DNA of 64,000 nucleotides from Falsiroseomonas tokyonensis. Its GTDB lineage: Bacteria; Pseudomonadota; Alphaproteobacteria; Acetobacterales; Acetobacteraceae. A model generated the notes under the pieces. It had not been told where the DNA came from. It was given only the letters and a program-made list of their open reading frames with translations, and made no database searches. Below are positions 17,980 to 20,111 of the stretch, one piece after another. The translations under genes and the position numbers were made by a program. The stretch is from positions 186,001 through 250,000 of the forward strand of contig NZ_JAFNJS010000007.1 in the NCBI RefSeq assembly GCF_019024325.1. The letters run 5' to 3'. The stretch's first letter is position 1. Each line of letters opens with the position of its first letter.

Positions 17980-18930
17980 ATGGTCCGCGCACGCCCCGTC
18001 CTGCTCGCCGTCTCGCTGCTCGCCCTGGCCCCCATCGCGCCGGGCGGCCCGCTCGGCGCGGCCGTGGCGCAGGCGCAGTCCAGCCTGGCGCCGAGCCAGG
18101 GCAGCCTGCCGCCGCCGCGGCCGGCCAGCCCCTCGGCGCCGCGGCTGGTGCCCTCCGAACAGCCGCGTTCGCTCGCCGTGCCGCCCAGCCGGCCGGCGAC
18201 GCCGCCCACCCAGTCCCAATCCCAATCAGGTAGCCGCCCGGCCGCCCAGCGCCCCGCCGCCCCCCGGCCGGGCCAGTCGGCCAGCCCGCAGGCGCGGCCG
18301 CAGGCACGCGCCGCCCGGCCCGGCCAGGCCGCCCCCACCATCGGCCGCACCACCCCGCCCGCCAATCGCCGCCCGGCCGCCGCCGGCGCCGCGGCAGGGG
18401 CCGCCGCCGCGGGCGCGGCCGCCACCGCCGCCACGGCACGCCCGCCGGAACCCGCCTTGCCCGCCAGCCCGCCGCCGATCCCGGCCGTGGGCTCGGTCAC
18501 CGGCCTTGCCCTGCCGCGCTTCGCCGCGCTGCGCTCGGACGAGGTGAATATGCGGGTCGGGCCCTCGACCAGCTATCCGATCGAATGGACCTTCCAGCGC
18601 CGCGACCTGCCTGTGCAGATCATCGGCGAATTCCAGCTCTGGCGCCGCATCCGGGACGCGGATGGCGCGGAGGGCTGGGTGCATTCCTCCACCCTGGCCG
18701 GACGCCGCACCGCGCTGGTGCGCCCCGCCCCCACGGCGCCGGAGGCCACGCTGCGCCGCCGGCCGGAGGATTCGGCCAGTGCCGTCGCCCGGCTGCGCCC
18801 CGGTGTCATCGGCCGCATCCGCGAATGCGAGGCCGGCGCGCCCTGGTGCGAGATCCAGGTCGCCGGCCATCGCGGATATCTGCGCCGCACGGAAATTTGG
18901 GGCGTGGGACTCGAGGAAGAGATCAAATAG
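17980..18930 (+). CDS. Exported SH3-domain protein
   Basis: A 316-residue protein with a signal peptide (first about 32 residues), then about 130 residues rich in Pro, Ala, Ser and Gln with no fold, then a bacterial SH3 domain (NMRVGPSTSYPIEWTF ... EGWVHSSTLAG) and a second SH3-like repeat to the C-terminus. Such proteins usually bind cell wall or act as periplasmic scaffolds. It lies 10 bases before the nitrile hydratase genes; a functional link is not evident. Confidence 0.82.
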   Translation: MVRARPVLLAVSLLALAPIAPGGPLGAAVAQAQSSLAPSQGSLPPPRPASPSAPRLVPSEQPRSLAVPPSRPATPPTQSQSQSGSRPAAQRPAAPRPGQSASPQARPQARAARPGQAAPTIGRTTPPANRRPAAAGAAAGAAAAGAAATAATARPPEPALPASPPPIPAVGSVTGLALPRFAALRSDEVNMRVGPSTSYPIEWTFQRRDLPVQIIGEFQLWRRIRDADGAEGWVHSSTLAGRRTALVRPAPTAPEATLRRRPEDSASAVARLRPGVIGRIRECEAGAPWCEIQVAGHRGYLRRTEIWGVGLEEEIK

Positions 18931-18940
18931 GCTGTCCGCC

Positions 18941-19246
18941 ATGCCCGACGACGCCCCCCTCCCCGCCCCCGCCACCCACGACATCGGCGGCGCGCCCCGC
19001 TTCCGCTGCACCCCGGTGGAGCCGGATGACGCGGCGCCGCCGGATGATTTCGGCAAGCGCGTCGATGCGCTGCGCCAGCTGCTCGCCCAGCGCGGGCTGA
19101 TGACGGTGGATGAGCTGCGCCGCGGGGTGGAGGCGATACCGGAGGCCGAGTACCACGCCCTCGGCTATTACGAGCGCTGGCTGCGCTCGATCTCCGGGCT
19201 GATGCTGGAAAAGGGCGTGGTGACGGCGGAGGATCTGCGCGGATGA
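18941..19246 (+). CDS. Nitrile hydratase beta-chain N-terminal half (separate subunit)
   Basis: A 101-residue protein matching only the N-terminal part of nitrile hydratase beta: HDIGG near the start and the helical stretch AIPEAEYHALGYYERWLRSI. Canonical beta chains continue into a C-terminal beta-barrel, which here is the next gene (4-base overlap). Separate halves are known in thiocyanate hydrolase (three chains) and toyocamycin nitrile hydratase. The same fold is shared by NHase activator proteins of Co-type enzymes, so it might also deliver cobalt. Confidence 0.85.
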   Translation: MPDDAPLPAPATHDIGGAPRFRCTPVEPDDAAPPDDFGKRVDALRQLLAQRGLMTVDELRRGVEAIPEAEYHALGYYERWLRSISGLMLEKGVVTAEDLRG

Positions 19247-19530
19247 CGAATTTCGCCCCGGGGGCGCGCATCCGCGTCCGCGCCGACTACCCCGAGACGC
19301 GCGGCCCCTGCCATATCCGCACGCCGCATTACCTGCGCGGGCGCGAAGGCGTGGTGGAACGCCCGCTCGGCGCCTTCCGCAATCCGGAGGACCTGGCCTT
19401 CGCCCGCCCGGCCGCCACCATCCCGCTGTATCATGTGCGCTTCGACCAACCCTCGCTCTGGAACGAAGGCGAGGCCGGGGACACGGTGCTGGTCGAGCTC
19501 TACGAGCACTGGCTGGAGCCCGCCGGCTGA
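19243..19530 (+). CDS. Nitrile hydratase beta-chain C-terminal half (SH3-like)
   Basis: A 95-residue protein equal to the SH3-like beta-barrel of nitrile hydratase beta: FAPGARIRVRADYPETRGPC, HYLRGREGVVERPLGAF and DTVLVELYEHWLEPAG. It starts 4 bases inside the gene for the N-terminal half and shares one base with the alpha gene (TGATG), so the three chains are probably made in equal amounts. Together the halves total 196 residues, close to one ordinary beta chain. Confidence 0.88.
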   Translation: MTNFAPGARIRVRADYPETRGPCHIRTPHYLRGREGVVERPLGAFRNPEDLAFARPAATIPLYHVRFDQPSLWNEGEAGDTVLVELYEHWLEPAG

Positions 19531-20111
19531 TGGCCCATGCCCCCGCCCCCGAGAATGTCGCGCTGCTGGCGCGTTTCACCGCGGCGCTGGCTGCCCGCGG
19601 CATCGTGACGGAAGCGCAGATCGCGGAGCAGATCGAACGCACCGACCGCGCCGATCCGCGCATCGGCGCCGCCATGGTGGCCCGCGCCTGGACCGATGCC
19701 GACTACCACGCGCTGATGCTGCGCGATGGCAGCCAGGCCGCGGAGGCGATGGGCGTCTCCATGGCCGGCGCGCCGCCGCTTGGCGTGCTGGCGGATGCGC
19801 CGGGGCTGCATCACCTGGTGGTCTGCACCCTGTGCTCCTGCTACCCGCGCGCCGTGCTCGGCTATCCGCCGCATTGGTACAAATCCGCCGCCTATCGGGC
19901 GCGGGCCATCCGGGACCCGCGCGGCGTGCTGGCCGAATGGGGCACCAGCCTGCCGGAGGCGACGCAGATCCGCGTGGTCGACAGCACGGCCGATTATCGC
20001 TGGATGGTGCTGCCGATGCGCCCCGCCGGCACCGAGGGCTGGGATGCGGACCGCCTGGCTGGCCTCGTCACCCGCGACGTGCTGGTGGGCACGCGACTGC
20101 CCCTGGCCTGA
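19530..20111 (+). CDS. Nitrile hydratase alpha / thiocyanate hydrolase gamma chain
   Basis: The metal-binding chain of a nitrile hydratase-type enzyme, 193 residues. The claw motif VCTLCSCYPR (Cys99, Cys102, Ser103, Cys104) is the cobalt type (Thr rather than Ser after the first Cys); two cysteines should be oxidised to sulfenic and sulfinic acids. Nitrile hydratases convert nitriles to amides; thiocyanate hydrolase makes carbonyl sulfide and ammonia. The split beta partner favours the thiocyanate hydrolase or toyocamycin-type layout. No amidase or typical activator gene is adjacent. Confidence 0.92.
   Translation: MAHAPAPENVALLARFTAALAARGIVTEAQIAEQIERTDRADPRIGAAMVARAWTDADYHALMLRDGSQAAEAMGVSMAGAPPLGVLADAPGLHHLVVCTLCSCYPRAVLGYPPHWYKSAAYRARAIRDPRGVLAEWGTSLPEATQIRVVDSTADYRWMVLPMRPAGTEGWDADRLAGLVTRDVLVGTRLPLA

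Follow-up and report, generated by a model that had tools for sequence, protein, structure and literature searches.

Nitrile hydratases (NHases) made of three subunits and working without an activator are known from Streptomyces canus CGMCC 13662, in which the genes of the enzyme (ScNHase) are ordered anhD-anhE-anhA. The portions of the original report drawn on here describe no activator in the genome, subunit masses of 10.41, 11.35 and 21.33 kDa and a native AnhD2E2A2 assembly (Guo et al. 2020, PMC7329996). Relative to the full trio, these portions give no activity for alpha alone, 0.2% for AnhDA and 4% for AnhEA; the apo-trio was raised to 54% by holo-AnhDA and to 12% by holo-AnhEA, and the authors concluded that AnhD is both a beta subunit and a cobalt and subunit-swapping chaperone (PMC7329996). 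As ScNHase alpha is also described there as taking up cobalt without AnhD (0.57 per alpha), AnhD appears to help insertion without being essential for it (PMC7329996). Toyocamycin NHase (TNHase), in the excerpt consulted, has chains of 21.2, 10 and 11.4 kDa that assemble as (alpha beta gamma)2 (PMC8574189). Thiocyanate hydrolase (SCNase) has an activator of its own according to the relevant part of a review (PMC7193024). In eukaryotic NHases, beta is described as fused to alpha, through a His-rich stretch in opisthokonts (excerpts of PMC2603476 and PMC3323583), and the review section on these fusions calls their activators undiscovered (PMC7193024).

The window analysed here, by which we mean the whole 64,000-nucleotide stretch of Falsiroseomonas tokyonensis DNA, contains a trio of overlapping genes related to these enzymes. 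Its features are as follows.

18941..19246, + strand: betaN, N-terminal half of the NHase beta chain, 101 aa, 11.11 kDa (PF21006, NHase_beta_N, 61.6 bits)
19243..19530, + strand: betaC, C-terminal half of the NHase beta chain, 95 aa, 10.80 kDa (PF02211, NHase_beta_C, 65.3 bits)
19530..20111, + strand: alpha, Co-type NHase alpha chain, 193 aa, 20.71 kDa (PF02979, NHase_alpha, 238.9 bits)
19821..19841, + strand: codons of VCTLCSC, the cobalt-binding claw, alpha 98-104 (from sequence; every residue invariant in 135/135 betaN-betaC-alpha loci)
19848..19850, + strand: codon of alpha Arg107, the position at which this lineage and its allies are best told from alpha-first NHases (basic in 151/152 versus 0/22)
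19118..19120, + strand: codon of betaN Arg60, which corresponds to the catalytic beta-Arg of NHases (135/135 split betaN, 0/17 activators)
19312..19320, + strand: codons of betaC His24-Ile-Arg26, on the side of the C half that belongs to the active site (Arg26 135/135, His24 134/135)
17980..18930, + strand: SH3-domain gene, a conserved neighbour that ends just 5' of betaN (PF06347; seen in 59/94 split loci of the window's alpha clade)

We consider it likely that this trio encodes a single cobalt NHase that is related to TNHase and belongs to the S. canus type, with three subunits and no activator, betaN probably serving as a chaperone as well. The enzyme type is already published; its wide distribution, the pattern at alpha residue 107 and the fusions described below are the parts that we regard as worth following.

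Conservation and spread of the split beta chain

All three products score above the Pfam cut-offs of their families (21.5 bits for NHase_beta_N, 27.7 for NHase_beta_C and 27.2 for NHase_alpha). The betaN and betaC genes overlap by 4 nt (ATGA, 19243-19246), and betaC and alpha by 1 nt (TGATG, 19528-19532). Against the NHase beta model TIGR03888, betaN covers positions 4-92 and betaC positions 138-226, so only the intervening stretch of the beta model is absent.

To place this arrangement, we ran PF02979 against 150 genomes from the taxonomic family of the window, of which 89 were positive, at 106 places. The resulting family set of 102 loci consists of 100 loci, each with flanks of up to 5 kb, together with the window and a second locus of the same genome (L006); G102:C1, a partial match at G094:C475 and two fragments at G141:C73 were dropped. 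The order betaN-betaC-alpha accounts for 78 of these loci. The remainder are alpha-beta-activator (7), alpha-betaN-betaC-activator (3; L040-L042), alpha-beta without an activator-like gene (4), betaC-alpha-betaN (4), betaN~alpha fusion (4) and alpha alone (2). A second, named set comprised the best 80 of 593 loci from a scan of genome_contigs with the alpha alignment; 57 of these 80 have the order betaN-betaC-alpha, and the set includes Rhodobacteraceae-type, betaproteobacterial, SAR324, Streptomyces and Rubrobacteraceae records. Together the two sets, which overlap, provide 135 split loci (78 family and 57 named) with 128 different alpha sequences.

Within these 135 loci, betaN and betaC never share one frame, in line with the two genes to which the sequence-only reading assigned the beta chain of the window. 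When betaC is read from its nearest possible start, it overlaps the betaN stop by 4 nt in 92 loci and by 1 nt in 22. The trio is present in 15/15 genomes of the genus, which we did not find in print. An intact fused beta gene elsewhere, which would have left the two halves as mere fragments, was not seen: the genome that contains the window (59 contigs, 99.7% complete) has a single PF02211 match, and it is the window's own betaC. These observations confirm that the split beta chain is real and is neither chance nor a sequencing artefact, and the split is old and maintained. A programmed frameshift that yields a fused beta chain was rejected, as the frame of betaC relative to betaN varies among the 135 loci (116 versus 19).

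That the two halves are instead a decayed beta gene in a non-functional locus is extremely improbable. Nothing beyond the split itself speaks for decay, and against it stand the conservation of the split in 135 loci and in every genome of the genus, the presence of the active-site residues, and uncorrected pN/pS values of 0.07, 0.14 and 0.25 relative to the nearest relative (L146); uncorrected values relative to two more distant relatives were 0.32-0.46. At 78 of the 102 family loci, the three-chain, activator-free NHase is the prevalent form in this alphaproteobacterial family and no Streptomyces oddity.

Several loci depart from this layout. In L040 (1735-2640), L041 (5585-6530) and L042 (4030-4962), alpha comes first and is followed by betaN and betaC in different frames and then by an activator-like gene. 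The order betaC-alpha-betaN occurs in L053, L055, L061, L068, L200, L206, L213, L222 and L223, which form one alpha clade (support 98). Short matches to the C-terminal part of alpha (profile 104-148) at L262 1421-2074 (G551:C3), and also at G548:C24, lie in a frame between and across other open reading frames and are possibly due to chance.

Subunit residues of betaN and the search for an activator

NHase activators are homologous to betaN, and the sequence-only reading had assigned the N half the activator fold. To compare the two, we aligned split betaN sequences with 17 activators, which were told by their position after beta. A YYxxW stretch is indeed common to both (Tyr76 in 132/135 and Trp80 in 129/135 betaN; 15/17 activators at each site). 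The remaining residues set betaN apart, and in these the likeness to activators did not hold. Arg60, which aligns with the beta-Arg of solved NHases, is present in 135/135 split betaN (57 of these loci from the best 80 of 593), 8/8 fusion betaN, 9/9 betaN of betaC-alpha-betaN loci and, at the equivalent position, 22/22 beta chains of alpha-first loci, versus 0/17 activators. Glu64 is found in 134/135 split loci versus 0/17 activators, and the GG of the HDxGG start is kept in betaN as in beta chains and absent from activators. On the other half, the active-site pair of betaC is similarly conserved (His24 in 134/135 and Arg26 in 135/135 split loci). The part of a review that treats ScNHase names AnhD-Glu56 and AnhE-His21 as its conserved pair; the corresponding Glu in betaN and His in betaC would be Glu64 and His24, a correspondence drawn through L199 and P. 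putida beta-E56 rather than from the ScNHase sequence.

The profile and structural comparisons point the same way. betaN matches the beta model TIGR03888 and gives no match to the activator model TIGR03889 at E 0.001. An AF2 model of betaN (mean pLDDT 80.5) is reliable over residues 31-101, and this part superimposes on 3qz9_B with Z 11.6 and an rmsd of 1.2 over 71 residues. A fold search with the model recovered NHase beta chains at Z 9.0-11.6 and the SCNase beta chain at Z 10.2, with the next unrelated structure at Z 4.5. That no activator structure was among the matches listed counts neither for nor against this reading. By its residues, betaN is thus predicted to be a subunit. Its assignment as a plain activator was rejected, given the presence of Arg60 and the lack of a TIGR03889 match at E 0.001.

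We then searched 50 genomes with TIGR03889 and found matches over the cut-off in exactly five, all of them positive controls (G016, G099, G107, G051 and G077; these are five of the 10 genomes that have an alpha-first locus with an activator, the other five having been left out). None of the 45 non-control genomes, including that of the window, contained an activator by this measure. In 44 other non-control genomes the weak matches had E values of 0.001 or worse, and in the window's own genome the model touched only two betaN stretches (E 0.22 and 0.34), far under the cut-off. The earlier remark that no activator adjoins the trio can therefore be extended to the whole genome by TIGR03889, and the pairing of a single beta gene with an activator that marks classical two-chain Co-NHases was not found there. 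In 40/40 genomes chosen for a single split locus, PF21006 had exactly one match. Among the genes nearest to the window trio, no amidase or cobalt transporter was recognised. A split beta chain does not by itself make an enzyme activator-free, as L040-L042 combine it with an activator-like gene.

As the genome has no recognisable activator, betaN probably also assists in loading alpha with cobalt. A chaperone role for betaN is probable by analogy with a single study of a distant relative; the sequence-only reading had suggested such a double role, which remains plausible and is not new, since it was published for ScNHase AnhD in 2020 (passages of PMC7329996). On this basis, we propose that betaN and betaC jointly replace the usual beta chain, betaN supplying the catalytic Arg/Tyr/Trp side and betaC the His-x-Arg side. 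The two would close over the Cys-Thr-Leu-Cys-Ser-Cys cobalt site of alpha, most likely as (alpha, betaN, betaC)2. As for AnhD, betaN probably binds free alpha and aids its cobalt uptake, after which betaC would complete the enzyme. We infer that the three products form a complex, that betaN takes part in cobalt loading and that the enzyme hydrates some nitrile.

A different division of labour, in which catalysis is left to alpha, with or without betaC, and betaN is in essence a recruited activator, would fit the homology of activators to betaN, which lets the betaN profile pick them up, and the shared YYxxW stretch. It would also fit the alpha chain of TNHase, which was reportedly found active on its own by Nelp and colleagues in 2014. 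We regard this division as very unlikely, since betaN retains the Arg and Glu that are absent from 17/17 activators as well as the HDxGG start; in addition, the portions of the ScNHase report cited above describe alpha alone as inactive and put alpha with AnhE at 4% and alpha with AnhD at 0.2% of the trio (PMC7329996).

The alpha lineage, its neighbourhood and residue 107

The assignment of alpha to the Co-type by its VCTLCSC motif is borne out by the claw, which is unchanged throughout the 135 split loci. The closest named relative among the best 80 of 593 loci is a Falsiroseomonas MAG (90% identity in alpha). Against TIGR01323, the NHase equivalog model, alpha scores 224 bits, under the cut-off of 249.85; of 10 other alpha domains, 6 scored over this cut-off and 4 under it. 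A quick maximum-likelihood tree was built from 182 alphas, with named loci from the best 80 of 593; in it the window alpha belongs to a 97-row clade (94 betaN-betaC-alpha and 3 alpha-only loci) with an SH-aLRT of 100 and a stem of 0.33. Given the score under the TIGR01323 cut-off and this separate, long-stemmed clade, the substrate of ScNHase is not transferable to the window trio.

All 17 alpha-first alphas that come with an activator, including 3 whose beta is split, group together; the group itself has a support of only 20, and the 18-row branch that contains them all has one of 98. With midpoint rooting they fall among the split types; on such a root, and on a sample that followed similarity to the window, it is possible that the split is ancestral. 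Judging from L040-L042, a beta chain may also become split independently.

Pfam-named neighbours of the window trio are ThiF, DsrE-like, SH3, DoxX and ROK genes. Across the 94 betaN-betaC-alpha loci of the window clade, the fetched stretches contained SH3 in 59, ThiF in 38, DsrE-like in 38 and DoxX in 4; where 1.5 kb or more of upstream sequence was available (77 loci), SH3 was present in 45, ThiF in 38 and DsrE in 38. This neighbourhood looks like a vertically kept location. At L257 and L263 (G084:C63), betaN-betaC occupies the usual ThiF-DsrE-SH3 site and alpha lies about 55 kb away. TNHase, whose genes are named ToyJKL, sits in an antibiotic cluster, and toyocamycin biosynthesis genes were not found among the Pfam-named neighbours of the window trio. 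Other split lineages occur in plainly catabolic settings: L052 adjoins an amidase, and L209 has a carbon-nitrogen hydrolase and a HupE/UreJ-type gene beside its split trio. The full order at L209 (3723-8270, Ectothiorhodospiraceae) is an open reading frame with a twin-arginine-like leader (judged by eye), betaN, betaC, alpha with a His-rich N terminus, the carbon-nitrogen hydrolase and the HupE/UreJ-type gene.

Residue 107 of alpha is the column directly after CTLCSCYP. In 152 alphas from betaN-betaC-alpha, betaC-alpha-betaN and fusion loci, with named loci from the best 80 of 593, it is Arg in 146, Lys in 5 and Val in 1, versus Trp in 17, Phe in 3, Tyr in 1 and Val in 1 of 22 alpha-first alphas, none of which is basic; 8 alphas of other layouts, all with Arg, lie outside this count. 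As L040-L042 have a split beta chain, an alpha-first order and Trp at this position, residue 107 tracks lineage or gene order and not the split as such. The pattern, which we did not find in print, makes alpha 107 a one-residue marker for the lineage.

Arg107 aligns with site 116 of the P. thermophila alpha chain, which is Trp in 4ob1 and Arg in the 3vyh mutant. Mutants SCNase R136W and NHase aW116R appear among the PDB titles, which suggests that the two enzymes differ at this site; judging from these titles and the 3vyh/4ob1 alignment, thiocyanate hydrolase apparently carries Arg at the 107 site. Together with the split beta and three chains of SCNase in the PDB, and with the sulfur-handling type of the ThiF and DsrE-like neighbours (38 each of 94 window-clade loci), this would fit a three-chain cobalt enzyme functionally closer to SCNase, with thiocyanate or a small cyano anion as substrate instead of organic nitriles. 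We judge such an activity unlikely. The score of alpha against the SCNase model TIGR03887 (169.6 bits) lies under both the cut-off of 291.45 and the 224 bits of the NHase model, and betaN and betaC are shorter than the SCNase beta and alpha chains. Moreover, Arg or Lys at 107 is hardly a thiocyanate signal by itself, as it is found in 151/152 alphas, including Streptomyces L199 with the ScNHase layout, and the sulfur-type neighbours may merely mark vertical descent. The distribution of Arg at this site suggests that it need not mean thiocyanate hydrolysis, and we continue to favour a nitrile as substrate of the window trio. As an SCNase ortholog, the trio was rejected on its TIGR03887 score, and none of 398 genomes of the phylum had a match to that model over the cut-off.

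The fusion locus and comparison with described enzymes

The same genome contains a second NHase locus, which the sequence-only reading of the window had overlooked.

G000:C12:838341-839339 (L006 9342-10340): betaN~His/Asp-rich~alpha fusion, 332 aa, in the window's own genome, no betaC nearby

The tether of this fusion has 14 His in 44 residues. By eye, the locus lies near binding-protein genes resembling the tripartite-tricarboxylate kind and an isochorismatase-family gene. Such fusions occur in 10/15 genomes of the genus, in 3/3 genomes of another genus and in three more reached through L183, L185 and L190. An AF2 model of the L183 fusion (pLDDT 80.0, pTM 0.75, linker under 50) gave weak matches to NHase beta chains (Z 6.4-8.7), on which nothing is based here. 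Among the open PMC papers listed by our searches, none described a betaN~His~alpha fusion from bacteria. Outside the fusion clade, L221 (3193-4461, MarineAlpha3) has an independent betaN~alpha fusion with a separate betaC directly behind it.

In each of the 16 fusion genomes PF02211 matches exactly once, and the match lies either on a different contig from the fusion or no less than about 76 kb from it, which we did not find in print; in 15 of the 16 this sole betaC sits in a betaN-betaC-alpha trio. Nearly every genome of these genera has the trio, so the co-occurrence of fusion and betaC alone says little. The remaining genome, G045, says more for a shared betaC than bare co-occurrence. At its trio locus (L141 at G045:C1, L082), betaN is missing, only the tail of alpha is left and betaC is open, with pN/pS of 0.23-0.26 versus 0.10 between its two relatives. 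The fusion, which is the sole alpha of this genome, overlaps an amidase gene by 4 nt and lies 2.3 Mb from betaC on the same contig (about 1 Mb if circular).

Tentatively, and with some doubt, we propose that one betaC serves two cobalt hydratases in the window's genome: the betaC of the window trio would also complete the unlinked fusion, whose tether possibly holds cobalt for its own active site, and in G045 the fusion with the lone betaC would be the only enzyme left. The claw of the G045 fusion, VCMLCSC rather than VCTLCSC, and the possibility that its betaC may simply not have decayed yet count against a shared betaC. Likewise, metal incorporation does not depend on the eukaryotic (His)17 linker according to the relevant part of a review (PMC7193024), and this argues against a role of the tether in holding cobalt. 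The unlinked fusions make it easy to probe how betaN, cobalt loading and betaC assembly are kept separate.

In comparison with described systems, the eukaryotic fusions (Monosiga brevicollis and others) resemble this second locus, although the bacterial fusion is without the betaC half. Two-chain Co-NHases with an activator (P. putida, P. thermophila; L043-L049) share the fold, claw and catalytic residues of the window trio and differ in their fused beta, separate betaN-like activator and, in most, an aromatic residue at alpha 107. SCNase of Thiobacillus thioparus (PDB 2dd4) likewise has beta split in two chains. However, its beta and alpha chains have 157 and 126 aa versus 101 and 95 aa for betaN and betaC, with profile matches that begin at residues 47 and 37 after N-terminal extensions absent here; the Arg of its gamma-136 site corresponds to Arg107 of the window alpha and is shared by 146/152 alphas of very different loci. 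TNHase, compared by sizes only, has three chains of the same sizes as the window trio. The kinship to three-gene enzymes noted earlier is upheld most clearly by ScNHase, and the accompanying statement that the known relatives are longer is not, since TNHase (21.2/10/11.4 kDa) and ScNHase (21.33/10.41/11.35 kDa) are of this size. ScNHase belongs to another phylum and, if Streptomyces L199, which shares its layout, is taken as a proxy, to another part of the alpha tree. It nevertheless resembles the window trio in its betaN-betaC-alpha order, similar masses (11.11/10.80/20.71 kDa here), lack of an activator and use of cobalt, and the window trio shows what marks ScNHase-type enzymes: separate betaN, betaC and alpha, no activator and a C-T-L-C-S-C claw.
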